DNA from: a virus
IMG/VR virus record: IMGVR_UViG_3300044941_000421
Span: 1-32,448 of that record
Length of the DNA: 32,448 nt
Strand: one strand, 5' to 3'
The notes below the pieces were generated by a model that worked only from the letters and a program-made list of their open reading frames with translations, ran no database searches and had not been told where the DNA came from. The translations under genes and the position numbers were made by a program. This document shows, in pieces, positions 2,877 to 27,790 of the stretch (position 1 is its first letter; the number at the start of each line of letters is the position of its first letter).

Positions 2877-2886
2877 TTAACAACTA
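2877..2886 (+). promoter_or_regulatory. TTAACAACTA intergenic element, copy 1 (before scaffold)
   Basis: The 10-base element lies nine bases after the stop of the putative hydrolase gene and 73 bases before the scaffold start, preceded by an AT-rich run. The same element occurs at four other plus-strand gene borders in this window. It could be a phage late promoter or an RNA-processing site; neither is demonstrated. Confidence 0.35.
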
Positions 2887-2893
2887 AACAATG

Positions 2894-2949
2894 AATTCCT
2901 ATCCAATTTCGGACGGAATAACTTAATTCTACCCCATTTCGGGATGAAA
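2894..2949 (+). repeat. Imperfect direct repeat in the scaffold leader
   Basis: Two similar units of about 25 bases, at 2894-2918 and 2925-2949, each start AATTC and contain an (A/C)CC-(A/C)ATTTCGG-A core. They occupy most of the gap between the TTAACAACTA element and the scaffold ribosome site. They could be a protein- or RNA-binding site controlling scaffold expression, or a simple local duplication. Confidence 0.4.
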
Positions 2950-2959
2950 AAGGAATATT

Positions 2960-3934
2960 ATGTCAGAAGTAAACACCGGAGCTGCTGCTCCAGCTAGTCA
3001 GTCTAGCTCCCAAACCCCAGAATCAACAGAAAATTCTCTTCAATCCGCTGAAAGTCAAGAATCAGGGTCTGTGGAATTACCAACAGAAGCATCGATTGAT
3101 GCTGATCCTAACCTCACTAAAGCGGAAAAGAAGGAAGCTAAGCGTCTTTTAAAGGAGCTTGAGCTAAAATACAACGGAAAAGTGACTAAAGAAAAGCTCC
3201 CCTTTGAAATTCCAGAAGAACACGCTGACTGGATGCGTCGTCAAATGCAATTAGCCAAAATGTCACAAGTTAAAGCCCAAGAACAAGCGGCTCTTGAGCG
3301 TGATGTTGTTGCTTTTTTCAATGAATTGCGTGAAAATCCAAAAAAAGCTTTATCAAATCCGAATATTGGGGTGGATGTTAAGAAGCTAGTGGCTGAAATT
3401 CTCGAAGAAGAACTAGAAAATGCCCAAAAAACTCCTGAACAATTGGCTTTGGAAGAAAAAGAACGTCAAATTAAAGAATTGATGGAGCGTGAAAGACAAC
3501 GTGAAGAGGAGTTGCGTCGCATTCAAGAGGAAAAAATCATAGAACAAGCGGCTCAGGAGTTCGATATTCAAATGTCTGAGACTTTGGATAAGTTCAACAT
3601 TCCTCGTACCCCATTAGCAATTAAAAAGATGGCTGAATACATGAGTTTGGCAATTGAAAACATGGAACAGCCTGACATGGATCTTATTGGTCAAATTGTC
3701 GAAGAAGAGTTAATGAACGATTATCGTCAACATCTTCACTCTCTCCCACCTGAGCGTATTGTTCAGTTGTTGGGTGAAGAAGTTTTTGAAAAGGTTCGTA
3801 AAGATCGAGTGTCAAAAATGAAGAAAGCTCAACCGACAGTTAAAGCCATCAGCAAAGATACGGCACAAACTAAGCCGAAAGAAGAACCAAAGCCAGTAAA
3901 AAAGCAATCTTTTAAAGACTTTTTTGGTGTATAA
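2960..3934 (+). CDS. Capsid assembly scaffolding protein
   Basis: The 324-residue protein lies directly upstream of the major capsid gene, the standard scaffold position. The first 55 residues are low-complexity (S, Q, E, A, T), residues about 60-110 form a charged helical segment, and about 150-190 is a strongly charged coiled coil (repeated E, K, R, Q). The C-terminus is short and basic (KPKEEPKPVKKQ, then SFKDFFGV), a usual scaffold coat-binding tail. It has no enzyme motif. Family knowledge: scaffolds guide procapsid assembly and are lost or cleaved on maturation. The start has an AAAAGGAATATT ribosome site. The call rests on composition and position rather than on a specific sequence signature. 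Confidence 0.8.
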   Translation: MSEVNTGAAAPASQSSSQTPESTENSLQSAESQESGSVELPTEASIDADPNLTKAEKKEAKRLLKELELKYNGKVTKEKLPFEIPEEHADWMRRQMQLAKMSQVKAQEQAALERDVVAFFNELRENPKKALSNPNIGVDVKKLVAEILEEELENAQKTPEQLALEEKERQIKELMERERQREEELRRIQEEKIIEQAAQEFDIQMSETLDKFNIPRTPLAIKKMAEYMSLAIENMEQPDMDLIGQIVEEELMNDYRQHLHSLPPERIVQLLGEEVFEKVRKDRVSKMKKAQPTVKAISKDTAQTKPKEEPKPVKKQSFKDFFGV

Positions 3935-3950
3935 CTACTGAATATTATTG

Positions 3951-3987
3951 GGATCTTTAATAAATTATTAAAGATCCTTATAATTTT
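3951..3987 (+). terminator. Perfect 11-bp hairpin after scaffold, candidate weak terminator
   Basis: The arms GGATCTTTAAT (3951-3961) and ATTAAAGATCC (3967-3977) pair perfectly around a five-base AAATT loop, 17 bases after the scaffold stop. The following TTATAATTTT is T-rich but not a pure T run, so it may be a weak terminator or an mRNA 3'-end stabiliser separating scaffold from capsid transcripts. Confidence 0.5.
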
Positions 3988-3995
3988 AACAACTT
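3986..3995 (+). promoter_or_regulatory. TTAACAACTT intergenic element, copy 2 (before major capsid)
   Basis: This copy differs from the others in its last base. It lies just after the scaffold-end hairpin and 142 bases upstream of the capsid start, followed by TATAGTGTTATAAAC, which contains a TATAAA-like block. A promoter placed after a terminator would give the capsid gene its own transcript. Confidence 0.35.
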
Positions 3996-4031
3996 ATAGT
4001 GTTATAAACTTCATTTGCTTCCAGGCATGAC

Positions 4032-4069
4032 TTGTCTTTACCCTCCAGAAAGACAATATCTAAATGGAG
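4032..4069 (+). other. Structured capsid-gene leader: hairpin with possible pseudoknot
   Basis: Arms TTGTCTTT (4032-4039) and AAAGACAA (4049-4056) pair perfectly around a nine-base loop. The loop contains CTCCA (4043-4047), complementary to TGGAG at 4065-4069, allowing an H-type pseudoknot. It sits about 70 bases upstream of the capsid start in an otherwise empty 203-base gap, so it could act on capsid mRNA stability or translation. This is a paper-and-pencil fold only. Confidence 0.4.
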
Positions 4070-4137
4070 AGCGGTGTGAGTGATTAACAAAACTATTTTA
4101 TTATAAACTATTTTTTTTAAAAGTAAAGGAAATTTTT

Positions 4138-5391
4138 ATGGCCGCTGAAAACAAGTTTTCGACCTCGGACAACCTCGTTGGTAATCTCAACGGTTTGTTC
4201 AAGCAAGTTTATGCTGATAAACTACAAGACCTTATCCCTGATGGTGTAAAACTTTTGAATATGATCAAGTTTTCCGCCAAGGATAAAACCGGTGACAAGT
4301 ATAATCAACCTGTGATTCTCGGAATGGAACACGGTGTAACTTTTGCTGCTTCTGACGAAGACGCATTTACTCTATCTGCTGCCGTTGCTGGTCAAATTAA
4401 AAACGCTGAAGTTCGTGGTAACGCTCTCGTTCTGCGTTCAATCATCGGTTACAAAGCCATTTCTGCCTCTGTTGGCTCTGACGCTGCTTTCCAAGAAGCA
4501 ACCAAGTTTCTTGTTGCTAATATGCTTCGTTCTGTAACAAAGAAACTTGAAATTGAAATGCTTTATGGACGTGCTGGCTATGCTGCTGTCGCAACCGTAC
4601 CAACATCAACAACTTTCACTGTGGCTGTTGCTGAGTGGGCACCTGGCATTTGGGCTGGTGCCGAGGGCATGCCAATTCAAATTCGTAACGCTGGTGGTAA
4701 CACTGTTCGTGGTTCATACACTGTTCAATCCGTTAACTTTTCAACCAGAACAATCACAATTGCCTCTGGTAACTTGACAACTGACGGTGTTGTAGCAGGT
4801 GACGTTGTTTGGCACGGCGGAGCTTACAACAAAGAGTTTATCGGAATTCACAAAATCCTTCAAGAGCAAACCGGTACACTTTTCAACATTGACCGTTCTA
4901 CCTTCCAGCTTTTCCGTGGTAACGTTTATGATGTTGGTAACAACGAACTTTCTTTCGATCACTTGAACCGCGCTATTGCTCGTGCTGTTGAGAAGGGCTT
5001 GGATAGCAAAGTTGTTTGCTTGGTTAACCCTCGTACATGGGCTGATCTTTTGACTGAGCAAGCTGCTCTTCGTAAGTACGACAGTTCTTACAGTGCTGGT
5101 AAGCTTGAGCAAGGTTCTAAGGGTCTTCTGTTCCACAGCCAAAACGGCGAAATCGAAATCATCCCTTCAATCTATGTGAAAGAAGGTTATGCCTATCTGC
5201 TTGAGCCATCAAGCTGGATGCGCGTAGGCTCTCAGGATGTATCCTTCAAGCGTCCTGGCTTCGGTGACGATTTCTTCCGTGAGCTAGAAAACGCCGCTGG
5301 ATTTGAGCTTCGCTGCTATACAGACCAAGCCTTGTTCACTTCTATGCCTTCACACAACGTACTGATCACAGGTATCGTTAACAACACCTAA
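4138..5391 (+). CDS. Major capsid protein (HK97-fold type)
   Basis: The 417-residue protein follows the scaffold gene and has a good TAAAGGA ribosome site. Length, position and features fit a HK97-fold major capsid protein: an N-terminal helical arm with VYADKLQDLIPDG, an extended loop region (YNQPVILGMEHGVTF), an internal beta-rich insertion around 150-225 (GSYTVQSVNFSTRTITI), a long spine-helix-like stretch (FDHLNRAIARAVEKGLDSKV) and a C-terminal domain ending in the RCYTDQALFTSMPSHNVLI region common among podovirus/myovirus-type coat proteins. Codon choice differs from the neighbours, with many C-ending codons and CGT for arginine, as expected for the most abundant virion protein. It is framed by its own leader and a strong terminator, so it may be expressed as a separate transcript. 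Confidence 0.88.
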   Translation: MAAENKFSTSDNLVGNLNGLFKQVYADKLQDLIPDGVKLLNMIKFSAKDKTGDKYNQPVILGMEHGVTFAASDEDAFTLSAAVAGQIKNAEVRGNALVLRSIIGYKAISASVGSDAAFQEATKFLVANMLRSVTKKLEIEMLYGRAGYAAVATVPTSTTFTVAVAEWAPGIWAGAEGMPIQIRNAGGNTVRGSYTVQSVNFSTRTITIASGNLTTDGVVAGDVVWHGGAYNKEFIGIHKILQEQTGTLFNIDRSTFQLFRGNVYDVGNNELSFDHLNRAIARAVEKGLDSKVVCLVNPRTWADLLTEQAALRKYDSSYSAGKLEQGSKGLLFHSQNGEIEIIPSIYVKEGYAYLLEPSSWMRVGSQDVSFKRPGFGDDFFRELENAAGFELRCYTDQALFTSMPSHNVLITGIVNNT

Positions 5392-5414
5392 TTCCTGAAA
5401 AACATTAAGTTTTT

Positions 5415-5443
5415 GGCCCGGTGCAATGCCGGGCCTTTTTTTT
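5415..5443 (+). terminator. Strong intrinsic terminator after major capsid gene
   Basis: GGCCCGG (5415-5421) and CCGGGCC (5429-5435) form a perfect seven-pair GC stem with a seven-base loop, directly followed by eight T residues (5436-5443). It starts 24 bases after the capsid stop. This is a textbook Rho-independent terminator. Confidence 0.9.
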
Positions 5444-5457
5444 ATTTTAGTATGTTG

Positions 5458-5479
5458 TATTTTCAACAAGATGAAAATA
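5458..5479 (+). repeat. 8-bp inverted repeat downstream of the capsid terminator
   Basis: TATTTTCA (5458-5465) and TGAAAATA (5472-5479) are perfect inverted copies with a six-base loop. An overlapping TGTTG/CAACA pairing is possible. It could be an operator-like site or a second weak hairpin in this 153-base gap. Confidence 0.3.
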
Positions 5480-5502
5480 ACTTTCAATAGTTAGGGCATT
5501 TT

Positions 5503-5512
5503 TTAACAACTA
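5503..5512 (+). promoter_or_regulatory. TTAACAACTA intergenic element, copy 3
   Basis: The element lies 32 bases before the start at 5545 and after the capsid terminator, so the downstream fibre operon needs a new promoter or read-through. It is preceded by a T run and followed by CATTGATAAAG. Confidence 0.4.
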
Positions 5513-5544
5513 ACATTGATAAAGTCTGCTTATCAAGGGCAAAC

Positions 5545-6048
5545 ATGGCAATTAAACTAACTATTCAAGGTACCCCTGTTGAACTTCCGGAAAGTGGGGC
5601 TTCTCCGAATTGGGCACCCGGAGTTATTGATGCAATTAAAACTCTAACCGTGGCAATCAACGGCGTTGCCGGCACATACGATGTTGCTCCTCAAGTACAA
5701 AACATTGATGCCAATAATCCTTCAACGAATGTAACCATCAATAATCTAGTTTTTCCCTCAAATGAAGTAAGAGGGGCTACTATTTTTTATACGGTTTATC
5801 GAAAAACGGTCAACTCGGGTCCACCGGATGGTGTTGAATTGGCTGAGTGTGGAACTCTTCAAATTGTTTTTAACAATGCCAATCCAGTCAATAATAAATG
5901 GGAAATACAAAGAGACTACGTTGGAGATGCCAAAATTACTTTTTCCATTACAGATTTAGGACAAATTCGTTTTACAACAGAATTGGTGACTGGTATCAAT
6001 CACACTGGTCTTTTATCCTATCGAGCTATTGCTATTTTGAATGAATAA
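5545..6048 (+). CDS. Small beta-rich virion protein preceding the fibre
   Basis: This 167-residue protein starts at the ATG at 5545; the ribosome site (AAGGGC) is weak. The sequence predicts mostly beta structure: strand-like IFYTVYRKT, a CGTLQIVFNN segment, KWEIQRDYVGDAKITFSIT, then GQIRFTTELVTG and a terminal LLSYRAIAIL. The last two segments resemble a module I know from phage fibre and minor virion proteins, but I cannot name a family. The gene lies 13 bases before the giant fibre gene, so I infer a fibre-associated or capsid-decorating protein. No membrane, signal or catalytic motif is present. Confidence 0.5.
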   Translation: MAIKLTIQGTPVELPESGASPNWAPGVIDAIKTLTVAINGVAGTYDVAPQVQNIDANNPSTNVTINNLVFPSNEVRGATIFYTVYRKTVNSGPPDGVELAECGTLQIVFNNANPVNNKWEIQRDYVGDAKITFSITDLGQIRFTTELVTGINHTGLLSYRAIAILNE

Positions 6049-6061
6049 TAGGAGTTAAGAA

Positions 6062-9000
6062 GTGCTAGGTATTAAAAAATTTTTTAAAGGTCTTGGACTT
6101 GTACCAAAAACTTCATCCGAAGCCGATGCTAAGGGTGAATTAGAAGTTTTGGATGGTGACGGTAAACTGCGTTATCATAATGGAACTTCAGTTTCCCCCA
6201 TTGTTACTGAAGCGCACTCCGCAACGCTCACAAACAAAACAATTGATGCTGACCAAAATACTATTACTAATATTAAAAATGCTGATATTAAAGCAGCTGC
6301 TGGAATTGTTGAATCAAAACTCTCTCTTGATTATTCAACCTCCAGTTTGAATAGTGCTATCCAAAACCACATCAACGACACTACAGACGCTCACGATGCT
6401 TCAGCTATTTCATACGATAATACAAGTTCTAACTTAACTGCAACTGATGTACAAGCTGCTATCGACGAAGTTGAATCTCGATTAGATACTGCTGAAACAA
6501 ATATCACAACAAATGCATCTAACCTAACAAACCATTTAAATGACACAACTGATGCACATGATGCTTCAGCTATCTCTAACGTACCAGCTGGAACTATTTC
6601 TTCCACTGACGTACAAGCTGCAATAAATGAACTTGACGGTGATATTCAAGGTCATATTAACGATACGTCAGATGCCCACGATGCTTCAGCCATCTCCAAT
6701 GTTCCGGCTGGAACTATCTCTGCCACAGATGTCCAAGCAGCCATTAACGAACTTGATGGTGATATTCAAGGTCATGTGACCGCCACACAAAACGTTCATG
6801 GAATTGGTGCTGGTAATTCAGTTGTTGGAACTGGAACAACTCAAACTTTAACAAATAAAACTCTTCAAGGTGCAAACATTCAAACACCTGTTCGTTCTGA
6901 TGTAAAACAGGATACAAAAGCCAACCTCCAAACATATGCAGCTTCAGCAACCAATGGTCAATTGGTTTTTGCTACAGACACTAAAGAAATGTTTCAGATT
7001 GTTGATAACAATCTCGTTTCTGTCGGTTCTGGCGGAGAAGGCGATGTTGACACTCTGTTAGTTCAAAACTTTGATACGGCTGCCTTGAGTGATTTTACTC
7101 AAACCGGATTAATTTTAACTCAAACTGGCACTATTCGTGGAGCCGTTTCCGCCAAACTTGTTCATCAATCAGGAGTTGATCAATCATTTAAACAAACTAT
7201 TCCGGTTGATTTGAAATTCAGAGGTCGTCCAATGACGGTTTCTTTGGCAGCCAAGTCTACTGCTGCATCCGGTAACTTAATTATTCAATTCCGTGACGAA
7301 ACAAACAATATTGATTTACAAGAGTCGCAACAAATTATTGCGACAAGTGATGTTGAAACATTCCAATTTGGTGTAAAAATACCAGATAACTGTTCAAGCT
7401 TCTCTTATAAAATCACAGCACTTCCACAATCAGGAAACCCAGAAAGTATTATTGATGACATTGTTATCCGTAATTACTGGATAGGAACTGCTAATTTAGG
7501 TCAAACTGAATATCAATTTGAAGTGCCCGTTGTTACTGAATGGGTTGATGCTGGACCAATACAAATTGGAGCCACGGGAACCCCACCTACGAAAGGAACA
7601 ACATCCGAAGATTCGGTAAGGTGGAGACAGGTCGGAGAAGATTACGAAGTTGAATATAAGTTTAGACAGACGAGCGCGGGCGCAAATGGTTCGGGTGATT
7701 ATCTTGTTTCTCTTCCATCGGGAGTTGAATTTGATTCAACTATTCCAAGCTTCACAGGAACCTTTGTTGCGACGCAAACTATTAAAGATATGTCAATAAT
7801 AAGCATAGAAGGCCAGTTTACAAACCAAACAAGTAGTGTTAATGGACTTGGATATGCAATTAAATGGTCCGACAATTCATTTAGATACATAACAAACTCT
7901 TTACCATGGTCAAGTACTGGTGCTCAGTTGGGATTGGCGGATGTTTCAGTGAACTTTAAACTTAAGTTTAAAGGGAAAAATCTAAAAGCAACCGAACTTA
8001 AAAAAGTTGTTTCCACAGACCTTGTTCCAGCCAAAGCATTAACCGGTAATTCTAGCTTTGAAGTGCCTGTTGTTACTGAATGGGTTGATGCTGGTCCAAT
8101 TACTATTACAGCAACTACCACAAACCCAACCAAGGGAACTACAACGGTCGACCGAGTACTTTGGAGACGCTCCGGTGATTCTGCTGAAATCCGCATGGAA
8201 TATGTTCAAACAGGTGCCGGAACAGCTGGTTCAGGTGATTATCTTTTCGCGATTCCATCGAGTATTGGTCAAATTGATTTAACAAAAACCAGCACATATA
8301 CCGCAAATATAAACTCCAATACCCAAAGACCCACTGCGGTTGTTGGTTCTTTCCAAGCTGGTGGAACTGCGATGTTGGATGGTGTGGCAACCGTTTATTC
8401 TAGTAATCAAATTAGATTAATCGGTGGAGTACATGCGTTTAGTGCAGGAAATACGATAACTAACTCAATTGGAAGTTCTTCCACAAACATATCTTTAAAT
8501 AACAGTCCTGTATCATATGGTATAACTTTTACTGTTCCTATTCAAGGATGGGAAGCAACCAAAACTGAAACAATTGGACTTGCACAGAGTGCATTAATAA
8601 AAGAAAGCGATAGCTATCTTAGAATTACCGATTTCACACCAGCTCTTGGAACAACCAACACTCGTATTTTCACATTAATTAGTGGTACTGTTAGAGATAA
8701 TATTGGAACAGATATTCAATATCTCGACGATGCTGCTTTAGGTGCTAGATTTATAATTCAAAGTGATGGTATTTACACATTTAACTTTTCTCAAGACCTT
8801 GGTACATCAGCTGCTGGCGTTGGATTTTCTGTAAACTCGACACAGTTATCAACAAACTTTTCAAGTATTAATGGTGTTAACAAGTTAACCAGTGGATATG
8901 ATACAGGGACTAACAATATAGCTAATGTGTCAGCAACAGCCTTTTTAAAAGAAGGGGATGTTGTACGTTTACATAGCGAAAGTACAGTTGGTAACGTCGG

Positions 9001-11422
9001 GGCAGGGTTTGCAGCATTAACAATCACCAAACAAGGCTCCCTCAAACAAATCAATATCAACCCTAATCAAAAAATTACAATTCCTACATCAGAATTACGT
9101 ATGGAGGGAGCATCTACTAGAGGTACAACTGCAACAGCTATTGTGAGATTTGATAACATAGCTAAGCTTCGCGGTGATGCATTTGAAGTATTAAGTGACG
9201 CCGCACTCGGTACTAGAATTATAATGAAGAAAAAAGGTAGATTAAGTATTTCCTCTACTGTGATCTTATCCTCAGCAGGTTTTTCGTTAGCAATAACAAA
9301 AAATCAAACCTTACTTACTGCATTTCCAAGTTCTGCCTCTGAAATTTTGGGTTTTTCTACTGCGGCTACAAACTATGGGGTCAATGTATCTGAGGTAACT
9401 GACGTAAATATTGGAGATGTTTTAAGAGTGTGCTCGCCTGTAACTATTGCAAGCGACGCTAGAAACTCACTCAATCTATCATTCCAAGAACAAGACATAT
9501 CCGTATCAGTAACCAATACATTACCTCAATTCAGTGAAAGCGATAGTTCAGTGCGCGTGGATACTGCGAATGGTTATGGCTCCTCAGCTACTAGAATACG
9601 TCGATTTAGCAATGTTAGGGATAATATTGGTAATGATATTGAGTATGTATCAAGCTCTGTGAATGGTGATAGTTTTGTTGTGAAGAGTGCCGGTGTCTAT
9701 AGCATAAGTTACTCAGAACAAGTTCCACCTAATGTTAATATGGGAATAACTAAAAATGCAACCGGAACAGAACTTTCTACGAATATAATAACTCTTGCTG
9801 GGTCCCCCACTACTACATCACTAGTTTTGGATTCTGCTGGCAATGCATCTGCTGGAACTCTGTCTTGTAGTTGGCAGGGAGTACTGCAAGCTGGAGATAT
9901 AATTCGAGCACATACTGACGGATTTGTTTCTGTTGATAATGACAACTGTCGTTTCACAATCACCAAAGTCGGCAAGCCTAATGTAACAGGTGTTGATGTT
10001 ACTCCATTTGTGAATATTCCACAACCTGAAGTTGAAACCTATGTTGCGAGTCTGAATGCTTCAATTCAACCATCTATCGTAAGACGGGCGACAAACTCCA
10101 AGTTATTTAGAGTTTCTACACCCACGGCGGGGAGAATTAGATTTACCGCATTAAAAAATATAAATATAAATGCTAGTGGGTCAATATCTTTTATTGGTTC
10201 GGCCCCGGGGGCATCCGCCGTGTGGTACTTAAATGGTAACGTACCAGTTAAGTCTAATAGTAACTATGCTTCCGCAAGCTTAATTACTATTGGTACAGAA
10301 AGCTCAATAGAAATATCATTGGTAACAGGAGAATTTATAGAGTTTTTAGGGGGCGTGTATGTTGGGGGGACTTTTTCCCACGCTGATGTTTCAGTGCTGG
10401 CGACGGCACTTTCTGATCAAATCCTAACAGCACCAGAGACATTCTCAACAGATACAGCTCGTTTAGTTTACGCACCATCCTCTCAATACACTTTAACTAC
10501 ATTGGCTGACGCTCCTGTTGGAACATTCATTACCTTCACTTATGCTGCAAACAGCAATACTCGCACACAAACTACAACAGCTCCCACACAATCCACAAGT
10601 GATATGAATGTGAATGGTATACAGATATTTGCCAGAGCATATAATGCAGCAAGTACAGCAGCTCAACCAGCCGCAATTGCGATACAAATCGGTAAGGGGT
10701 TAAAGGGTAAGACATTGGATTTGTATAAAAACACTGGTAAATCTATTTCTGGTAGTTTGGATTTTTATACAATATCTACTTTCAATACTGGAATGCATAT
10801 CAAAGATTATAACGAAGCTACGGGAATTTTAATCCTAGATTCCGGTTTTTCAGCTAATGCTTCTGTTACTACTAGTAATTTTGTCTTTAGCGATACAACA
10901 ACACAAACCAATGGATATATCGTAATAAACGCTAGTAAAAATCCAGCATTAACCGGACTGAACTTAGTTCAGCCTAGAATTGCATATGTACAGAGATTTG
11001 TACCTCCTGCAACTAGTGGTGGAACCTCAGTTGCCGGAGCGTGGAATACCGTACCACTTTCACAACTAAATGACCCGACTGGTATTGGGATTAGTGTTTC
11101 ATCTAACCAAATCACAATTCCAGCCGGTAGCTATGATATAACCGGATTTTCAAGTTTAAGAACCAGCGATAATCAGCTTAGATTGAGAAATATAACAGAC
11201 GGCACAACAACATTGCTCGGATTTAACGTTTACGGGGGCAATATTTCAGATGGTGCACTTATGCCAGCTTCATGTTCGGGAATTGTAACAATCTCTTCAA
11301 CAAAGGTTTTTGAGTTACAGTATCGAGTCGCGGTGGGTGACACTTTTGGTCTAGGTGGTGCATCTACAAACTTCGGTGAAGATATATTAACCGCATCCGT
11401 CAAAATTCAAAAATTGAAATAA
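6062..11422 (+). CDS. Giant modular tail fibre / receptor-binding protein
   Basis: A GTG start seven bases after AGGAG gives 1786 residues. In order: an anchor region (about 1-100, with LTNKTIDADQNTITNIK); fibre-shaft repeats with DAHDASAIS at 109, 164 and 204 and a decayed fourth copy at 238; a DVKQDTKANLQTYA linker (about 280-320); a carbohydrate-binding-like beta-sandwich (about 335-475); two 180-residue modules opening with FEVPVVTEWVDAGP at 486 and 666; three C1q/TNF-like jelly-roll-like modules (about 845-995, 1009-1150, 1158-1305); a variant module (to about 1455); a long beta domain with TRTQTTTAPTQS (about 1460-1640); and a C1q-like tip (about 1645-1786). Fibres of this type bind the host surface. 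Domain names for the globular parts are my inference from strand patterns. Confidence 0.82.
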   Translation: MLGIKKFFKGLGLVPKTSSEADAKGELEVLDGDGKLRYHNGTSVSPIVTEAHSATLTNKTIDADQNTITNIKNADIKAAAGIVESKLSLDYSTSSLNSAIQNHINDTTDAHDASAISYDNTSSNLTATDVQAAIDEVESRLDTAETNITTNASNLTNHLNDTTDAHDASAISNVPAGTISSTDVQAAINELDGDIQGHINDTSDAHDASAISNVPAGTISATDVQAAINELDGDIQGHVTATQNVHGIGAGNSVVGTGTTQTLTNKTLQGANIQTPVRSDVKQDTKANLQTYAASATNGQLVFATDTKEMFQIVDNNLVSVGSGGEGDVDTLLVQNFDTAALSDFTQTGLILTQTGTIRGAVSAKLVHQSGVDQSFKQTIPVDLKFRGRPMTVSLAAKSTAASGNLIIQFRDETNNIDLQESQQIIATSDVETFQFGVKIPDNCSSFSYKITALPQSGNPESIIDDIVIRNYWIGTANLGQTEYQFEVPVVTEWVDAGPIQIGATGTPPTKGTTSEDSVRWRQVGEDYEVEYKFRQTSAGANGSGDYLVSLPSGVEFDSTIPSFTGTFVATQTIKDMSIISIEGQFTNQTSSVNGLGYAIKWSDNSFRYITNSLPWSSTGAQLGLADVSVNFKLKFKGKNLKATELKKVVSTDLVPAKALTGNSSFEVPVVTEWVDAGPITITATTTNPTKGTTTVDRVLWRRSGDSAEIRMEYVQTGAGTAGSGDYLFAIPSSIGQIDLTKTSTYTANINSNTQRPTAVVGSFQAGGTAMLDGVATVYSSNQIRLIGGVHAFSAGNTITNSIGSSSTNISLNNSPVSYGITFTVPIQGWEATKTETIGLAQSALIKESDSYLRITDFTPALGTTNTRIFTLISGTVRDNIGTDIQYLDDAALGARFIIQSDGIYTFNFSQDLGTSAAGVGFSVNSTQLSTNFSSINGVNKLTSGYDTGTNNIANVSATAFLKEGDVVRLHSESTVGNVGAGFAALTITKQGSLKQININPNQKITIPTSELRMEGASTRGTTATAIVRFDNIAKLRGDAFEVLSDAALGTRIIMKKKGRLSISSTVILSSAGFSLAITKNQTLLTAFPSSASEILGFSTAATNYGVNVSEVTDVNIGDVLRVCSPVTIASDARNSLNLSFQEQDISVSVTNTLPQFSESDSSVRVDTANGYGSSATRIRRFSNVRDNIGNDIEYVSSSVNGDSFVVKSAGVYSISYSEQVPPNVNMGITKNATGTELSTNIITLAGSPTTTSLVLDSAGNASAGTLSCSWQGVLQAGDIIRAHTDGFVSVDNDNCRFTITKVGKPNVTGVDVTPFVNIPQPEVETYVASLNASIQPSIVRRATNSKLFRVSTPTAGRIRFTALKNININASGSISFIGSAPGASAVWYLNGNVPVKSNSNYASASLITIGTESSIEISLVTGEFIEFLGGVYVGGTFSHADVSVLATALSDQILTAPETFSTDTARLVYAPSSQYTLTTLADAPVGTFITFTYAANSNTRTQTTTAPTQSTSDMNVNGIQIFARAYNAASTAAQPAAIAIQIGKGLKGKTLDLYKNTGKSISGSLDFYTISTFNTGMHIKDYNEATGILILDSGFSANASVTTSNFVFSDTTTQTNGYIVINASKNPALTGLNLVQPRIAYVQRFVPPATSGGTSVAGAWNTVPLSQLNDPTGIGISVSSNQITIPAGSYDITGFSSLRTSDNQLRLRNITDGTTTLLGFNVYGGNISDGALMPASCSGIVTISSTKVFELQYRVAVGDTFGLGGASTNFGEDILTASVKIQKLK
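6533..6772 (+). repeat. Two adjacent 120-bp repeats inside the fibre gene
   Basis: Units 6533-6652 and 6653-6772 are exactly 120 bases each (40 residues) and encode nearly identical H(L/I)NDT-DAHDASAIS...TDVQAAINELDGDIQG segments. A related earlier copy at 6368 contains an insertion and a decayed copy starts at 6773. The in-frame length suggests shaft lengthening by recombination. Confidence 0.8.
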
Positions 11423-11431
11423 GGAGAAACT

Positions 11432-12145
11432 ATGCTCATACAAAAACTATCACAACTAGGATTTATTGAAGGCGTAGATTACTCAATCGTTGATGGAGAA
11501 ATTGTACCAATTGCTAAAGTGCGACTTATTGAACAAGAAATTGACTATCCTGCTGTTCCGGAAGAATTAGATGAGGAAGGCAATGTTATTGTTCCAGCTC
11601 GTGAAGCATATACGGAAATTATTCCTGTTGAAGAAACATATTACGAAAAAGTTCCTTCCATGGCAGAAGTTAAACGTTTATGTCTACTTGATCATGACGT
11701 TGCTTTGTTAGTTGGTGAATATCTCAAAGACAAGCCTGTTACTGAAAATGATAGCTTGAATATTGATTTGTTTCTGGCTGGAGGGGACGGTTGGCGATTT
11801 GCTAATGTGCCAGCCCCTACGATGGATCAATTGTTTGATTTGATTGCTCCTGTTCAAAATGCAATGCAAATAGAGGCAGAAAAACAAGCTAAATTACAAG
11901 CCGGAGCTGCGGCTCGTAAGGCTTGTCAGGATGTGCTTGATTTTATTGCTGGATCAAATTTGGAAAAAAATCTATCAATTGAGCAAATAACACAATTACA
12001 ATCTCTGTTTTCGGCACCGGAAGCAGCGTTGCGTGCTGGTCGTCCAACCTTAGCTAAGCAACTAATAAGTGCTATTACTCCGGATGGCGTGTTAATTACA
12101 GAGGAAGATAAAGAAATAGCATTACAGCTATTGGCACAATACTAA
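11432..12145 (+). CDS. Probable fibre assembly/chaperone-like protein
   Basis: The 237-residue protein starts 7 bases after an AAGGAG site and immediately follows the giant fibre gene, the classical place for a fibre chaperone. The N-terminus is beta/acidic (GVDYSIVDGEIVPIAKV, then a run rich in E, P and V). The middle has an acidic loop and GGDGWRFANVPAPTMDQLFDL. The last 85 residues are helical (AARKACQDVLDFIAG, SIEQITQLQSLF, LRAGRPTLAKQLI, PDGVLITEED) and match the C-terminus of the 1920-2384 product. I infer a role in trimerisation or attachment of the fibre. It lacks the characteristic domain of the T4/lambda fibre chaperones, so the call is by position and paralogy. Confidence 0.55.
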   Translation: MLIQKLSQLGFIEGVDYSIVDGEIVPIAKVRLIEQEIDYPAVPEELDEEGNVIVPAREAYTEIIPVEETYYEKVPSMAEVKRLCLLDHDVALLVGEYLKDKPVTENDSLNIDLFLAGGDGWRFANVPAPTMDQLFDLIAPVQNAMQIEAEKQAKLQAGAAARKACQDVLDFIAGSNLEKNLSIEQITQLQSLFSAPEAALRAGRPTLAKQLISAITPDGVLITEEDKEIALQLLAQY

Positions 12146-12154
12146 GGAAAGAAT

Positions 12155-12361
12155 ATGAGTAAAACTAGTAAAGGACGTTCAGAATTACAGGGAATGAAAG
12201 TTCTCCAAACGGTTTTTAATGAGAGCGATGCTTCATTTACAACTTTATTGCAAGCTCAAATTGATGCGCTAGAAGATGATGTTAATGATTTGCAAACTCA
12301 TTCTCAAACATTCACAACGGCAACTTGGACTGGGTCAGGTCAGGACAATATTCAATTTTAA
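12155..12361 (+). CDS. Small uncharacterised protein with a short coiled coil
   Basis: This 68-residue product is preceded by AAGGAAAG and lies nine bases after the previous stop. The middle (LQAQIDALEDDVNDLQTH) is a short heptad-like amphipathic helix; the tail is Thr/Gln-rich. The size and coiled coil suggest a trimerising small virion or fibre-linked protein, but nothing specific is recognised. Its TAA stop forms part of the downstream TTAACAACTA element. Confidence 0.5.
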   Translation: MSKTSKGRSELQGMKVLQTVFNESDASFTTLLQAQIDALEDDVNDLQTHSQTFTTATWTGSGQDNIQF

Positions 12362-12367
12362 CAACTA
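12358..12367 (+). promoter_or_regulatory. TTAACAACTA intergenic element, copy 4
   Basis: The element embeds the stop codon of the 68-residue gene and lies 34 bases before the start at 12402, with AT-rich sequence on both sides (AAAGTATATTAATATC downstream). Confidence 0.35.
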
Positions 12368-12401
12368 AAGTATATTAATATCAACTAATTAGGAGTATAA
12401 A

Positions 12402-12788
12402 ATGTTGAAAAATGGTAGAAAAATGTCCCCAATGGAAGCTAAGGCGAAACTCGCCACACTAAAGTCTCTTATGAAAGAGATGGATGACATGATGTTTGAT
12501 AGCATGAAAAATGCCAAGGGAATGAAGGTTTCAATTATGTCGGATTCTCCAGAAGGATTAAAAGAGGGAATTGAAAAGGCTGAAGAACTCCTTGAGAAAA
12601 AAAGCGAACTTGGCTTCGATTCTCATAAGCTTAGCAAAATGACAGAAAAAGAGGATGAAGAAGAAAAAGAGGGAGAAGAAGAGATATCCAATGATGAGGA
12701 AGAGGAGTCAGCAGAAGATTTGGATGCTAAGATCGCTGAGCTTCTCACTAAAAAGAAACGCAAAGAAAGTCAATTGAAAGTTAAATAA
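12402..12788 (+). CDS. Highly acidic small protein before the adaptor
   Basis: The 128-residue product has a good TTAGGAG site. Residues 1-45 are a Met/Lys-rich helix (KLATLKSLMKEMDDMMFDS), 46-85 are helical and charged, 86-110 are almost entirely Glu/Asp with a few Ser and Lys, and the tail is Lys/Arg-rich (LTKKKRKESQ). It has no known fold or motif. The acid patch followed by a basic tail could mimic nucleic acid or bind a basic partner. Position between the fibre-accessory genes and the head-tail adaptor suggests an assembly or packaging helper; that is inference. Confidence 0.55.
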   Translation: MLKNGRKMSPMEAKAKLATLKSLMKEMDDMMFDSMKNAKGMKVSIMSDSPEGLKEGIEKAEELLEKKSELGFDSHKLSKMTEKEDEEEKEGEEEISNDEEEESAEDLDAKIAELLTKKKRKESQLKVK

Positions 12789-12799
12789 AGGTGTAATCA

Positions 12800-14008
12800 A
12801 TGGGTAAAAAACCCTACTACACTTCAAGTGAGCTGATTGAGGCTGTTAAACGTAAAATATCCATGCCTGTTGCGCAGGTGACGTTTAATGAAGAAGACAT
12901 CCTCAATTTTGCCAATGAAGAAATGTTCTTGTCTCAAATTCCAACTCTTCTTCAATACCATGAAGAATACTTGGTTTATCGTCATAAAGTTGATCTTTTA
13001 GAGGATGTTCAGAAATACGAAATCCCAGAGAGAGCTATCGGAATGAAACTCAGGGATTTGTTTTTTGTGGATAATCAAGGTAATATTTATGAAATGACGA
13101 ACGTCGGTGCTGGAAATCAAGATGTATTTCAACAAAACTCATTTGGAACTCATGCTCATAAATCATTTTATCTTGAAAACAATCACATTGTTTTGCCAAC
13201 TAAAGTAGGTAGTGCTCCCGCGGGTTCACTAGAAATGATTTATTTTCTTCGTCCTAATTCACTCGTGTCTAATGAACGTGCTGCTATTTGTACTGGATTT
13301 GTTAAAGAAGTAACAATTAATAACACGAACCTCACGGCTGGGAAAATTTTAAGTATTGGTGAACATAATTTTGTAGCAAACACGGATTTTACAATTGGTG
13401 TTTCATCAACTGCAACAGCGACCAATTTAGCTTCAGCGATTAATGCTAGTCAACTTGATGGAATAACAGCAAGTTCAAGTGGTGCCGTTGTGAAAATTGT
13501 TTACGAGGAAAGAAATACAGAAATTACAAGCAATACAACTGGAATGATTGTTGGTGATAGGACTGGAATTCAAGCCACCGTTCCAGCTCATTTTGAGGAT
13601 AGGATGTATGTTGATTTTTTACAAACATCCGGTGGTCATAGAACTTATTCGTTTGATGTGCGGATTCCCTCGAATGGTGTAAGTTCCGATGCTGTATTTT
13701 TTCCAGATGATAAAATTCCATCAGATTTTAAATTAGGTGATTATATTTGTCAACAACACGAATGCATCATTCCTCAAATTCCTAGTGATTTACATAATCT
13801 CTTGGCTGAAAGAACTTGTGCTCGGATATTGGAGGCTTTGGGTGATCAAGCTGGATTACAAACAGCCAATTCAAAAATTGCTGAACTAGAACAGAAACAA
13901 TCAACGTTAATTAATAATAGGGTTGAAGGCTCTCCTAAGAAAATATTTGCTAAACACGGTTTATTAAGATATGGTAAATTTCGTGGTTCAAGAGGCCGAT
14001 ATCCATAA
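12800..14008 (+). CDS. Head-tail adaptor (tail-tube A-like) with an inserted beta module
   Basis: The 402-residue protein starts after AAAGGTG. Its opening (SSELIEAVKRKI, FNEEDILNFANEEM, LLQYHEEYLVYRHKV) and its C-terminal helices (DLHNLLAERTCARILEAL, SKIAELEQKQSTL) follow the helical pattern of podovirus head-to-tail adaptor or gatekeeper proteins that join the portal to the tail nozzle. Residues about 166-260 are an inserted beta/alpha module (ILSIGEHNFVANTDF, SSTATATNLASAINAS, GAVVKIVYEE) also seen in the following nozzle protein. The C-terminus is basic and Arg/Gly-rich (YGKFRGSRGRYP). Twelve bases separate it from the nozzle gene, matching the T7-like order adaptor then nozzle. Confidence 0.7.
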   Translation: MGKKPYYTSSELIEAVKRKISMPVAQVTFNEEDILNFANEEMFLSQIPTLLQYHEEYLVYRHKVDLLEDVQKYEIPERAIGMKLRDLFFVDNQGNIYEMTNVGAGNQDVFQQNSFGTHAHKSFYLENNHIVLPTKVGSAPAGSLEMIYFLRPNSLVSNERAAICTGFVKEVTINNTNLTAGKILSIGEHNFVANTDFTIGVSSTATATNLASAINASQLDGITASSSGAVVKIVYEERNTEITSNTTGMIVGDRTGIQATVPAHFEDRMYVDFLQTSGGHRTYSFDVRIPSNGVSSDAVFFPDDKIPSDFKLGDYICQQHECIIPQIPSDLHNLLAERTCARILEALGDQAGLQTANSKIAELEQKQSTLINNRVEGSPKKIFAKHGLLRYGKFRGSRGRYP

Positions 14009-14020
14009 GGGAACTAAACA

Positions 14021-17000
14021 ATGGCATCAACTGTTATTGTCGCAGCCTCTGGTTTAGTTACATCTCCAAATGAACTAAACCGCCCAGAGGGATCATTAAC
14101 TGAAGCAAAAAATGTTGTTATCAAAAGAGACGGAATCATCGAGCAGCGTCGAGGATTTAAGCTCTATGGTGATCGTCTTCCTTTAAATACACAACGAGTT
14201 AAACAAATGAAATTTTATCGAAACCGACTTATTCGCCACTATGCCAATAAGTTACAGTATGATTCTAATGGTCTCGGTAAAATGGTTGATTTTTCCGGTA
14301 TAGTCGAAGAAGCAGAGACTAACAATAGATTAAAATTTGTTGAATCAAATGGAAATTTATATTTTACAACAAAAGATGGAATTAAAAAGATTTCCGCCAA
14401 ATTAGCCGCAGATTTAGGGTTGGCGGAAATTGAATCATCTGGTGCACCCAAGGCTTTAGATATAAAGGCAGAATTGGTTATTACCGATAATCTTCAGACA
14501 GGGTTTTTGCCGCAAGATTCAACGATTGCGTATCGAGTTGTTTGGAATAAAAAAGATCGAAATGATAATCTTCTAACTGGCTCCCCCTCTCAACGCGGTA
14601 TTGTTATTTTTCCAATGGCTCAGGTGATTGTTCGAGATACAATGAGAGTATTGAGCACTTTGGATAGTCTTCAAAATACCCCATTAACGGCAGCAAGAAT
14701 CAATGACAAAAACTATATCGATACACTAAAGCTTACCTTAGCTTCAACACCAACACAAATTAGAACGAATTTAATTGCGTTGGCTGCTAAAATAGATAAT
14801 GATATTTTTATAGCCGACCAAGCTTCAGTAGCTCCTTTGCAAATTGTTTCAGCTTCAATTACTAGCGGTATCTGTACTATTACTTTTACTGGTGGAACAG
14901 TTACAGACTATTTGAGTGTAGGTAAAATAATTGATCTAAAGGGATTTAATTTAACCCCAAGTGGTACTTTGGATGGAAAACAGGTTGTTGTAACTGCAAC
15001 TGCAACACAAATAACTTTCAATACGACTCAAACCGGAACAGTGACTCTTGTTTCTCCGGAAATTCGTTATAGAGAGTACAGAGAAATACCGAATCCCGTA
15101 ACTCCTTCAGTCCCAGCTTCGCATTTGGATTTAGAATCGCTTCAAGAATATCTTGACACAATTATTCAAAAACTTCAGTCTGAGCCAACAAGTATCATTT
15201 CAACTGCTGACCAGACTCTTATAGATGATTTGGATTTAACAACCACAGCAACCACAAAAATCACCTTTGCCATACCACGAGGTATTACAACCGAACATTT
15301 CTATCAGGTATATCGTTCCACAATTGCTCAAGCGACGGGAACTGCGGTTTTAGATGATCTTAGTCCTAATGATGAGCTTCAATTGGTGATGGAAGGCTAT
15401 CCAACTTCCCAACAGATTGATGATGGAAAGATTACACTAGACGATATTACACCAGAGGCTTTTCGTGGCGAAAACTTATACACCAATGCATCTAGTGGAG
15501 CTGGGATTCTTCAAGCCAACGATCAGCCTCCTTTTGCTAAGGATGTTGCTAAATATAAAGGGTCGGTATTTTTTGCTAATACAAGAACCAAACAACGTCT
15601 TGAATTAAATTTGCTTGGTGTTCAGCAAATGATTAACGATTTTGATAATAATTCAATCACACCTAAAATAACCATAACCAATGGCACCACAACGAATACT
15701 TATAATTTTGTAACTGGTCAACAGGAAATAACTTCAGTTACTACTGTGGCTGATGTTTCTAATAGTTTAAATGGTAAATCATTTAAGCTAAATACAGCAA
15801 AAGGAAAAAAATATCGCATTTATTTTGAAACAACCACTGCATCTGATCCATCAGGACCAGGAGAAACTGGTGTTAAAGTAAAAATTGCAACAAATGCAAC
15901 AGCAACGGTAGTAGCTAAGGCTCTATCCAATAAAATTTCCACACTATTAGATGATTTTAGTTCTTCATACACAGGAGCTGTTGTTGAAATTGTTGATTTA
16001 AATTTTGGGGAAGTAATTGATTCTGTTGATGTGGACTCTGGATTTACAATTAACGTTACACAACAGGGAAGTGGTGAAAAAATTCAATCCCAGGTTACAG
16101 AGTTCACATTGGTAGCCGGAGCTAATTACGTCAACTCTGGTACATCGGATTATGTCACCATAAATACACCCGGAGATCAAAACCGATTTGTTATTGCTTT
16201 TAAGAGAACCGGTTCGACTTTACCAAACATTCCTAATAAAACTCTTCTTCAAGTGAACGTAACTGGTACAGAAACTGCTGCTCAAATGGCAACAAAATTT
16301 GCTGATATTCTTCCATCGAATCTATTTGAAACCGAGGTTGCGGGCAATGTGGTGACTGTCACAAATAAGCAATTTGGTCAATGCACCAATGCAACAGAAG
16401 TTGTTGCGGATTCCGGGTTTTTAGTTTCAACGGAAGTTGTCGGAGGAATCGATATACTTCTATCAACGGCTCCATCTCCGGCTCAAGCGGTGGATAATAC
16501 AGCTCGATCATTGGTTGAAGTTATTAATAGAAATAAAGGCGAAATAGTTTATGCTTACTATTTATCCGGAGCTTTTGATGTTCCTGGTAAAATGTTTTTA
16601 GAGGCTCGATCTTTAAATGATCTTGATCCATTTTATGTTTCTTCCAATAATGATGTAACTGGTCTTTCATTTAGCCCTGAAATTGGTCCAGATGTACTAA
16701 TTTCAACCATCAGTACTGGTACCTCTACTGTGACCATCACAACAGCTACAGCTCACGGTTTGGAGACAGGAGATGAAATAGTTATTTCTTCCAGTAACTC
16801 TTCTCCGTCGATTGATGGAATTTATAGGGTTAATGTCACGAACTCTACAACTTTTACTATATCGGCTTATGTCGGTGTAGCAGGAAATATTGGATCGATT
16901 GTGCGTAAATCAGTTGCTTTAAAATCTGAGAATGAACAAAAGGTTAATAGAATTTACTACTCAAAAGCAGATCAACCTGAAGCTGTGCCAATTGTTAATT

Positions 17001-18661
17001 ATTTCGATTTGGGTTCTTCAGATAGGGCTATTTTAAGAATTTTTGCCCTACGAGATTCTTTGTTTGTTTTTAAAGAAGATGGTCTTTATCGGGTTTCTGG
17101 TGAAGGTGCTCCATTTCAATCTAGTTTGTTTGATAACTCATTTATTCTTCTTGCTCCAGATTCTGTGGGAGTTTGTCAGAACGTTATTTACGCTTGGACG
17201 ACTCAAGGGATTCAGTCCTTGACGGAAGGTGGAGCATCGGTTATTTCTCGACCAATTGACAACATTATTTTAAAAACACAGTCAGCATCATTCCCGCATT
17301 TTAAAACGGCAACTTGGGGAATCGGCTACGAATCCGACAACTCTTACTTGGTATTTACTGTGAAAAATCCAGCCGATGTCAATTCAACAATTGCATATCG
17401 TTATTCTACATTAACTAATACTTGGACGGTTTACGATAAGGCAAGTATTTGTGGTGCTATTGGAACTTTAGATGATAAATTATATTTGGGTGCTCAAGAC
17501 GTTGCTTATACTGAAATTGAAAGAAAGGATTTCTCCAGACTTGATTATGCCGATCGTGAATATATAACTACTTTAAGCAATAATAAAATTCTAGGTAAGA
17601 AAATTATTGTACCGAGTGTAACAAATTTTGAAATTGGTGACGTTATTGTCCAAGATCAAACAGTTACTATATATAAATATAATCAACTTCTTGAAAAACT
17701 AGACCTTGATCCCGGGCCAGCAGATAATAACTATTTAAACACACTAAAAGCCAGTCAGGGAAATAATTTGCGTACAAAACTAGAGCTTTTAGCGACTAAA
17801 TTAGATAACGATGCAAATATTGTCGCCAATAATTTCTCAAGTTTAATTGGAACCAAAAGTGGAACAGCAACCTTCATCGACGACGGAGAACCGACTGTAA
17901 TTACTTCAAATAACCACGGATTGATTACAGGAAGAATTGTAAAAATTACGGATAGTGATTCGCAGCCAATCATTGATGGTACTTATGCAGTGACGGTAAT
18001 TAATGCTAACCAATTTAGTATTCCACTATTTGTCAATGTTGAAGGTACTACGGCAGATTGGGAAACGGTTGATGATGATTTTGATGATCTTAAAACGTGC
18101 TTTAACAAAATTGTGTCAGTTTTAAATGACGATACCGGTGTAAGTTTTAGTAACTATAGCTTAATAACCGAAAATACAATTCAAGAAGCCATTATTACAA
18201 ATATAAACAAAATAACCAAAGAGTTGACAGTTAATTTGACTTTGGATTTTATTGTTGGGGAAGCTACTGTTTTTAAAGCGATTAAATCAAGTATCACTTA
18301 TTCTCCCAGTACTTTTGGTGATCCATTGAATTTAAAACACATAAGAGAAGCGACTTTGATGTTTGAAACTCGAAATTTAACTTCCGGAGAATTGGCTTTT
18401 GCTACCGATCTGCTTCCTGAATTTATTAAAATTCCTTTTAAATTAGATGGAAATGGCGTATTTGGTCATAATGAATTCGGAGAAGGATTTTTTGGGGGGC
18501 TATCTAATGCGGCTCCTCTTAGAACATATATTCCTCGTCAATGTCAAAGATGCCGCTTTATTATTGGAAAATTTAGTCACACTGTGGCTAGGGAAAACTG
18601 GAGACTACTTGGTATGACTTTGACAGGTGAAATTGGACAATCAACAAGGGCATTTAGATAA
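14021..18661 (+). CDS. Tail nozzle / packaged-DNA stabilisation-type protein, greatly enlarged
   Basis: At 1546 residues this is about twice the size of T7 gp12 and three times that of P22 gp10. The N-terminus (GLVTSPNELNRPEGSL, EAKNVVIKRDGIIEQRRGF) and C-terminus (LKHIREATLMFETRNLTSGE, FGHNEFGEGFFGG, RCRFIIGKFSHTVARENW) carry the hallmark pattern of podovirus nozzle proteins, predicted beta-propellers forming the distal tail tube. The extra length comes from inserted modules: a helix-beta-helix unit at about 213-385 repeated at about 1223-1390, another beta unit at about 895-963, and two alpha/beta units near 620-690 and 745-815. The beta units with HGL-tGd, IdG-Y-V and F-I strands resemble an E1-type FCCH domain. 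The start is ATG at 14021 after AAGGGAAC. Confidence 0.75.
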   Translation: MASTVIVAASGLVTSPNELNRPEGSLTEAKNVVIKRDGIIEQRRGFKLYGDRLPLNTQRVKQMKFYRNRLIRHYANKLQYDSNGLGKMVDFSGIVEEAETNNRLKFVESNGNLYFTTKDGIKKISAKLAADLGLAEIESSGAPKALDIKAELVITDNLQTGFLPQDSTIAYRVVWNKKDRNDNLLTGSPSQRGIVIFPMAQVIVRDTMRVLSTLDSLQNTPLTAARINDKNYIDTLKLTLASTPTQIRTNLIALAAKIDNDIFIADQASVAPLQIVSASITSGICTITFTGGTVTDYLSVGKIIDLKGFNLTPSGTLDGKQVVVTATATQITFNTTQTGTVTLVSPEIRYREYREIPNPVTPSVPASHLDLESLQEYLDTIIQKLQSEPTSIISTADQTLIDDLDLTTTATTKITFAIPRGITTEHFYQVYRSTIAQATGTAVLDDLSPNDELQLVMEGYPTSQQIDDGKITLDDITPEAFRGENLYTNASSGAGILQANDQPPFAKDVAKYKGSVFFANTRTKQRLELNLLGVQQMINDFDNNSITPKITITNGTTTNTYNFVTGQQEITSVTTVADVSNSLNGKSFKLNTAKGKKYRIYFETTTASDPSGPGETGVKVKIATNATATVVAKALSNKISTLLDDFSSSYTGAVVEIVDLNFGEVIDSVDVDSGFTINVTQQGSGEKIQSQVTEFTLVAGANYVNSGTSDYVTINTPGDQNRFVIAFKRTGSTLPNIPNKTLLQVNVTGTETAAQMATKFADILPSNLFETEVAGNVVTVTNKQFGQCTNATEVVADSGFLVSTEVVGGIDILLSTAPSPAQAVDNTARSLVEVINRNKGEIVYAYYLSGAFDVPGKMFLEARSLNDLDPFYVSSNNDVTGLSFSPEIGPDVLISTISTGTSTVTITTATAHGLETGDEIVISSSNSSPSIDGIYRVNVTNSTTFTISAYVGVAGNIGSIVRKSVALKSENEQKVNRIYYSKADQPEAVPIVNYFDLGSSDRAILRIFALRDSLFVFKEDGLYRVSGEGAPFQSSLFDNSFILLAPDSVGVCQNVIYAWTTQGIQSLTEGGASVISRPIDNIILKTQSASFPHFKTATWGIGYESDNSYLVFTVKNPADVNSTIAYRYSTLTNTWTVYDKASICGAIGTLDDKLYLGAQDVAYTEIERKDFSRLDYADREYITTLSNNKILGKKIIVPSVTNFEIGDVIVQDQTVTIYKYNQLLEKLDLDPGPADNNYLNTLKASQGNNLRTKLELLATKLDNDANIVANNFSSLIGTKSGTATFIDDGEPTVITSNNHGLITGRIVKITDSDSQPIIDGTYAVTVINANQFSIPLFVNVEGTTADWETVDDDFDDLKTCFNKIVSVLNDDTGVSFSNYSLITENTIQEAIITNINKITKELTVNLTLDFIVGEATVFKAIKSSITYSPSTFGDPLNLKHIREATLMFETRNLTSGELAFATDLLPEFIKIPFKLDGNGVFGHNEFGEGFFGGLSNAAPLRTYIPRQCQRCRFIIGKFSHTVARENWRLLGMTLTGEIGQSTRAFR

Positions 18662-19074
18662 TGAGATTACCTAGTTATCGAAGAATAATGACTCAAGATT
18701 ACCCCGATGAAAATAAGGAGCTTATTGAAAAGCTTAGCAGGGTTGTTAATGATTCTTTTGAATCTCTTTATGAGGCTTTAAACAAGCGTTTAAGTTTTAG
18801 TGATAATATTGCCTGTACGGTTCGAGATGTGGACGTTATTGTTGATTCTAACGGGGATGTGATAGGTCAAGTGGGGTTTCCGACAGATTTACCAACCACC
18901 AATGTAACTGGTTGTATTTGCGTAAGAGCACAAAACCTAACAAATTCAAGTATTTATCCGACAGGCACTCCATTTATTAATTTTATTCAATTAAATGATT
19001 TTGTTAGGATTTTAAATGTGTCTAATCTTCAGGCTAATAATCGCTATAGGCTTAGAATTATTGCATTAAATTAA
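18661..19074 (+). CDS. Small conserved-type tail protein following the nozzle
   Basis: The 137-residue product has its ATG overlapping the nozzle stop by one base (TAATG). The pattern is an N-terminal helical segment (DENKELIEKLSRVVNDSFESLYEALN), then a compact beta domain with VDSNGDVIGQVGF and a final LQANNRYRLRIIAL strand. Similar small proteins commonly sit directly after the nozzle gene in large podoviruses, where they may attach fibres or plug the nozzle. I recall the pattern but no proven function. No membrane or signal segment is present. Confidence 0.55.
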   Translation: MRLPSYRRIMTQDYPDENKELIEKLSRVVNDSFESLYEALNKRLSFSDNIACTVRDVDVIVDSNGDVIGQVGFPTDLPTTNVTGCICVRAQNLTNSSIYPTGTPFINFIQLNDFVRILNVSNLQANNRYRLRIIALN

Positions 19075-19080
19075 CAACTA
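19071..19080 (+). promoter_or_regulatory. TTAACAACTA intergenic element, copy 5
   Basis: The element embeds the stop codon of the 137-residue gene and is 21 bases from the start of the Hint-domain protein, with AGAGGATTAATTAAA between. The short spacing leaves little untranslated leader if transcription begins within or just after it. Confidence 0.35.
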
Positions 19081-19101
19081 TTTAACAGAGGATTAATTAA
19101 A

Positions 19102-27388: not shown

Positions 27389-27790
27389 TTATTTTTTTTC
27401 CAAATCTTCTAGCCTTTCATAAAAAACTAATTTACCCTGTGCCTTTTCTCTCGTCAATATACAACGATTTCTGGCATTATTTTTATTATAAATTCTTTTT
27501 TTATCTTCTCTGCTCTTGTTGAGCTTTGGTCCATTGTGATTGAAATTAGCGTTATTTTCTTCTTCCATGAAAGCATTCATCCATGCTTTTTCTTCTGGAC
27601 TAAGTTTATGAAAATAGCTTCTCACATCATCTATTTCTTCTTGGCGAGTTTTTAAATTGAGTCCTGGTTCTAGAGCTGGATATAGGGTTAAACTACGCTT
27701 TGACTTTTTTCGGCAATCTTTTTCTGAAGATTTTTCTGTTTTTTGGTGGCTTTGAATATATTTTTTCAATTTCTTTGTATTTTTTGACAT
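27389..27790 (-). CDS. Basic uncharacterised protein overlapping its upstream gene
   Basis: I choose the ATG at 27790, which has an AAAGGTGA site nine bases upstream; a GTG at 27802 is also in frame. The 133-residue product is Lys/Arg-rich with a first 30 residues that are almost all charged, a middle segment with an EEIDDVRSYFHKLSPEEKAW pattern and a basic Asn-rich tail. It could be a nucleic-acid-binding protein. It overlaps the 27693-28409 gene for 98 bases in another frame, unusually long for a start/stop overlap. No family is recognised. Confidence 0.5.
   Translation of the reverse strand: MSKNTKKLKKYIQSHQKTEKSSEKDCRKKSKRSLTLYPALEPGLNLKTRQEEIDDVRSYFHKLSPEEKAWMNAFMEEENNANFNHNGPKLNKSREDKKRIYNKNNARNRCILTREKAQGKLVFYERLEDLEKK

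Follow-up and report, generated by a model that had tools for sequence, protein, structure and literature searches.

A conserved element at virion gene borders as a putative late promoter in a family of uncultured bacterial viruses

A short element recurs in front of virion genes in a viral DNA fragment, and the question it raises is whether it starts late transcription, marks a place where a long late transcript is processed, or recurs there by chance. In the window (the whole stretch of 32,448 nucleotides analyzed here), TTAACAACTA is present at positions 2877, 5503, 12358 and 19071 and TTAACAACTT at position 3986, all on the plus strand, exactly where a preliminary description of this DNA had placed them. 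These five plus-strand copies of TTAACAACT(A/T) are each located at a border of a virion gene; the next start codons are at 2960, 4138, 5545, 12402 and 19102, so that the distance of 21-142 bases between element and virion gene given in that description is correct, as is the overlap of two copies (12358 and 19071) with the TAA stop codon of the upstream gene. The description had also noticed no copies inside genes or on the minus-strand block. This holds for exact copies, of which there are none within genes or on the minus strand, but not for copies with one mismatch, which are present in both (1729, 6848, 11059 and 15236; 24152 and 29960 on the minus strand). In 300 dinucleotide shuffles of the window, the exact sequence TTAACAACTW, seen five times on the actual plus strand, occurred 0.24 times on average and three times at most. 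When scored with a position matrix trained on relatives, the five sites reach 16.0-19.3 bits and the best-scoring other site of the window, which is within a gene on the opposite strand, reaches 9.7 bits. The features of the window discussed below are listed in Table 1.

Table 1. Putative late promoters, terminators and candidate regulator genes of the window
Feature	Positions	Strand	Remarks
Putative late promoter of scaffold-like gene 2960-3934	2877-2893	+	Predicted transcription start 2892-2893; matrix score 17.7; element before orthologue in 11/18 genomes
Putative late promoter of capsid gene 4138-5391	3986-4001	+	Predicted start 4001; matrix score 19.3; element before capsid gene in 5/18 genomes
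Putative late promoter of gene 5545-6048 (cluster 6)	5503-5518	+	Predicted start 5518; matrix score 18.9; 15/18 genomes
Putative late promoter of acidic gene 12402-12788	12358-12374	+	Overlaps stop of 12155-12361; predicted start 12373-12374; matrix score 17.5; 8/17 genomes
Putative late promoter of Hint-containing gene 19102-21381	19071-19087	+	Overlaps stop of 18661-19074; predicted start 19086-19087; matrix score 16.0; 14/17 genomes
Terminator-like hairpin 3' of scaffold gene, 5' of promoter 3986	3950-3978	+	
Intrinsic terminator 3' of capsid gene, 5' of promoter 5503	5415-5435	+	
c23, candidate partner, predicted small all-helical protein	27389-27802	-	Overlaps and lies downstream of c19; adjoins late block
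c19, candidate late regulator, predicted tandem winged-helix protein	27693-28409	-	End of early (minus-strand) block

A search of 50,697 phage records with the capsid protein of the window gives a single match, to a Silvanigrella phage at 28% identity; the same protein retrieves 71 related viral contigs, several of them 70-90 kb long. The family that carries the element is a large group of almost entirely uncultured bacterial viruses; the contigs are metagenomic and of unstated completeness, and their ORFs were called mechanically. Host assignment by way of genome contigs led to two MAGs from different phyla, which are probably misbinned phage contigs. In the capsid-related contigs, whose relatedness inflates all counts and makes the events non-independent, TTAACAACT is found 188 times on the capsid strand vs 12 times on the opposite one (16 and 19 times in the reversed controls). 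According to the preliminary description, its reading would be refuted by abundant copies within coding sequence at the frequency expected by chance; in the 11 genomes examined for this, 97 of 120 copies are located in noncoding DNA, which constitutes 8.1% of the sequence, vs 6 of 44 in the reversed control. When words in the gaps 5' of plus-strand genes were counted de novo for each genome separately, some form of the element was among the top words in all 18 genomes, of which 17 are long contigs and one is the window. The form is TTAACAACT in 11 genomes, including the window, TTAACAAAT in six, and the drifted TTATCAAGT in one (G021). The core is near-invariant upon refinement that did not force it, the flanks differ between copies, and the element is conserved down to approximately 40-50% capsid identity while its form drifts, by lineage, at one base.

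From genome to genome, it is the same orthologues that have the element in front of them, and the five sites of the window are positions conserved at the orthologous borders of relatives. It is also found before a small gene (cluster 22) present in many relatives (11/11 genomes) and before the portal gene (7/17 genomes), and it is absent, across genomes, in front of operon-internal genes (adaptor-like, 1546-aa, 137-aa and terminase terL). Several of the few copies in minus-strand gaps of G018 and G004 are located 5-14 bases before minus-strand genes, and in G006 and G016, where the M15 endolysin gene is inverted, an imperfect copy with a TAACAACT core, read by eye, is present close upstream on the gene's own strand. 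The closest cultured relative, the Silvanigrella phage, lacks the element. We found no description of it in searches of the open-access literature, though it may be described elsewhere, and no credible match in Rfam. A short and AT-rich sequence can recur by chance or be spread as a repeat by recombination, and yet the probability of this is negligible here: five copies are seen where a fraction of one is expected, conservation extends to distant capsids with lineage-wise drift, the flanks differ, and the strand bias, the orthologous placement and the concentration in noncoding DNA already refute it.

Two genes deserve separate mention. The M15-type peptidase gene, likely encoding the endolysin, is on opposite strands in G006, G010, G014, G016, G017, G019 and G021 vs G001, G002, G003, G004, G005 and G015, and for some of the inverted copies a late element or a near-match is present on the gene's own strand. 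The product of 19102-21381 is a 759-aa protein of the virion region in which a Hint domain of the kind associated with homing endonucleases is matched weakly, below the cutoff, near residues 608-634; since the orthologues of relatives have a median length of only 540 aa, the copy in the window may carry an insertion.

The two readings offered in the preliminary description were a late promoter specific to the phage and a site of RNA processing; the spacing to start codons, an initiator, the order of terminators and the own-strand location of minus-strand copies all favor the promoter. Among ORFs of at least 60 codons, start codons are found at offsets 15, 16 and 17, counted from the element's first T, in 13, 6 and 8 cases, respectively (ATG at 15-17 in 27 cases), at offsets of 18-20 in three cases, and are spread from 21 on; there is no peak in the reversed control. 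At TTAACAAAT sites (n=43), position 14 is a T in 93% and position 15 is a purine in 96%; at TTAACAACT sites (n=182) the preference is weaker (62% and 80%), and it persists after sites with an ATG there are dropped. The pile-up of start codons and the T/purine initiator together point to a transcription start at about offset 15, a distance from the element that would then be fixed, with the nearby genes being leaderless. A Shine-Dalgarno-like sequence precedes 1 of the 22 leaderless genes, 27 of the 48 with a short leader and 108 of the 122 with a longer one.

Of the 225 elements, 21 have a same-strand intrinsic terminator that ends 6-67 bases upstream, and none has one within 90 bases downstream; there are none in shuffled upstream sequence and none on the opposite strand. 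In the window, promoter 3986 begins 8 bases past a terminator-like hairpin and promoter 5503 is 68 bases past a strong terminator. A site of RNA processing or RNA binding in a long late transcript would not require such an order, and although the location of the element between co-directional genes and the conserved hairpins in some downstream leaders would suit it, we consider it very unlikely given terminators that are upstream and never downstream, the fixed start-codon offset and the missing Shine-Dalgarno sequence. The element is confined to late/virion genes, in gaps and on the correct strand, and the case that it is a promoter of late genes rather than a processing site is, as far as sequence can tell, a strong one. 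The layout that we infer is TTAACAA(C/A)TA from -15 to -6, an AT-rich stretch, T at -1 and a purine at +1; a -35 box is absent. A sigma70-like promoter with TTAACA as its -35 element was also considered and rejected, as the -10 box that it would need at 16-18 bases is not consistently present.

The leaders themselves contain some structure. Between the putative late promoter and the capsid gene (4001-4137) there is a hairpin (TTGTCTTT...AAAGACAA) that recurs in relatives with both sides changed at 3 of 7 pairs, and similar TTTCGG hairpins are present in the scaffold leader (2893-2959). Translational control by these hairpins is possible.

The gaps before early and late genes are of two classes. 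Gaps 5' of minus-strand genes contain 30 strong sigma70-type promoters (TTGACA-N16-18-TATAAT, at least 11 of 12 matches) vs 2.3 expected, and gaps 5' of plus-strand genes contain six vs 1.2 expected together with 110 copies of TTAACAA vs 9.5 expected. The minus-strand block is likely early because of its replication and nucleotide genes; the two classes of gaps thus suggest that early transcription is carried out by host sigma70-type polymerase and is followed by a switch to a phage-specific signal. The early block of the window also encodes a small HNH protein (30126-30494) that is conserved in 15 of 18 genomes. Four relatives contain promoters of the flagellar sigma28 (FliA) type, TAAAGTTT-N11-GCCGATAA, most of which are located on the minus (early) strand: 14 sites match at 15 or more of the 16 positions, three of them perfectly, and the reversed control has no such site (L087-L091 in G019, L106-L110 in G007, L146-L149 in G012 and L142-L145 in G017). 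At this level of matching the window has none. These sites suggest that some relatives tie their early genes to the motile state of the host.

Which enzyme reads the late element? A search of 21 long relatives did not find the phage-encoded RNA polymerase or known sigma factor proposed in the preliminary description. The single-subunit RNA polymerase profile PF00940 has no match at E<=1 in these relatives (the controls gave E 1e-109 for T7 RNAP, E 1e-14 for N4 RNAP2 and a weak match for N4 vRNAP); the β' profile PF00623 is absent at E<=1 from 21 relatives with 14 of 14 controls positive; sigma70 region 2 (PF04542) is absent at E<=1 from 22 relatives with 11 of 14 controls positive; and the T4 gp55 families phrog_234 and phrog_12791 are absent at E<=1 from 21 relatives with a positive T4 control. 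Profile searches of this kind could miss a polymerase or sigma that has diverged very far, but with no known one found, the simplest reading is that the host core polymerase works with an unrecognized factor.

A highly diverged phage polymerase, single-subunit or multisubunit, is improbable but has some attractions. The layout as we read it resembles that of single-subunit promoters such as those of T7 and N4, where one continuous element runs to the start site, and an uninterrupted element of this kind, running from -15 to +1 and AT-rich around the start, would likewise fit a T7-type enzyme. The late promoters of jumbo phage AR9, AACA-N6-T(A/G), are read by a phage multisubunit polymerase (PMC5312081, PMC9209446) and are likewise built of AACA followed by T(-1) and a purine (+1) in front of late genes. 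The spacing here is, however, AACA-N8-T(A/G), and AACA is additionally preceded by a conserved TT and followed by a conserved A(C/A)TA. We regard the resemblance to the AR9 promoter (PMC5312081), striking as it is, as convergent or coincidental. The negative profile searches with positive controls set these viruses apart both from T7 and N4 and from AR9 and phiKZ, and the conserved large early proteins resemble primase-helicase and DNA polymerase by sequence.

Host polymerase with host sigma70 and an activator, similar to T4 MotA or N4 SSB, for which the element would mainly be a binding site, is rather unlikely too, though less so. Activators are common in phages, and c19, a product of the early block, resembles a DNA-binding protein. 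The element is, however, located at -15 to -6, a region that sigma factors, and not activators, normally read; a TATAAT-like box is not found where one would be expected, the upstream sequence shows no site beyond AT-richness, and sigma70-like matches are rare in late gaps.

Among known systems, the late promoters of T4, which depend on gp55/gp33/gp45 (review PMC2988020), are similar in that a single -10-type element with no -35 precedes virion genes and is read by host polymerase, as it would be here. They differ in carrying TATAAATA at -13 to -6, where TTAACAA(C/A)TA is located in our viruses, and in relying on gp55, of whose family no member was found in 21 relatives. In the leaderless -10-only promoters of Deinococcus-Thermus, the TANNNT motif is the ordinary -10 region of the host (PMC12340547). 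They share with the element described here a -10 position directly 5' of start codons, which is predicted to give leaderless mRNA; the motif in these viruses is instead phage-specific and limited to late genes.

The genes c19 and c23 are, by synteny and co-occurrence, the best candidates for the late factor, and we put them forward tentatively. Homologues of c19 are found by profile in 16 of 18 genomes, with one further weak match (E 0.0017) in the same slot, and c23 is present in 18 of 18. An AlphaFold model of c19 contains two winged helices (pLDDT 75, pTM 0.41); Foldseek gives RFX with a probability of 0.98 but E 0.25, and there is a weak resemblance to Pox_D5, with the best E, 2.8e-7, coming from a single member. 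The model of c23 is helical and of low confidence, with no PDB match in a structure search. A tblastn search of the 50,697 phage records finds no match to either protein, and neither profile matches gp55. In G021, c19 is not detectable by profile and the element is the drifted form, which counts against a link between the two. The idea that the number of winged-helix domains in c19 sets the CT or AT form of the element fits the first genomes but is broken by G020 and G031, where the CT form occurs with a one-domain c19.

Taken together, we think it probable, if by no means certain, that a phage factor, most likely c19 and/or c23, redirects host RNA polymerase to the element as a late core promoter. 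Early genes would be transcribed by host RNA polymerase from ordinary sigma70-type promoters; the specificity factor would be a product of the last genes of the early block, with the predicted winged-helix protein c19 and/or the neighboring c23 as the likeliest candidates, and would steer host RNA polymerase to the late elements, with the TTAACAACTA core at about -15 to -6; and transcription would restart past the terminators, ahead of each virion operon. The more specific proposal that c19 and/or c23 constitute a new, non-homologous promoter-specificity factor with no sigma70 or gp55 ancestry, which directs host RNA polymerase to TTAACAA(C/A)TA and leaves some late mRNAs leaderless, is speculative and more doubtful than not.

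The finding provides a transcription map, with sigma70-type promoters for early genes and a phage element for late ones, of a large group of phages that is almost without cultured members, and start sites and leaderless genes become annotatable from sequence. It narrows the search for the promoter-specificity factor to two neighboring genes. Because one base of the element differs from lineage to lineage, exchanging factors and promoters could show which of them belong together.
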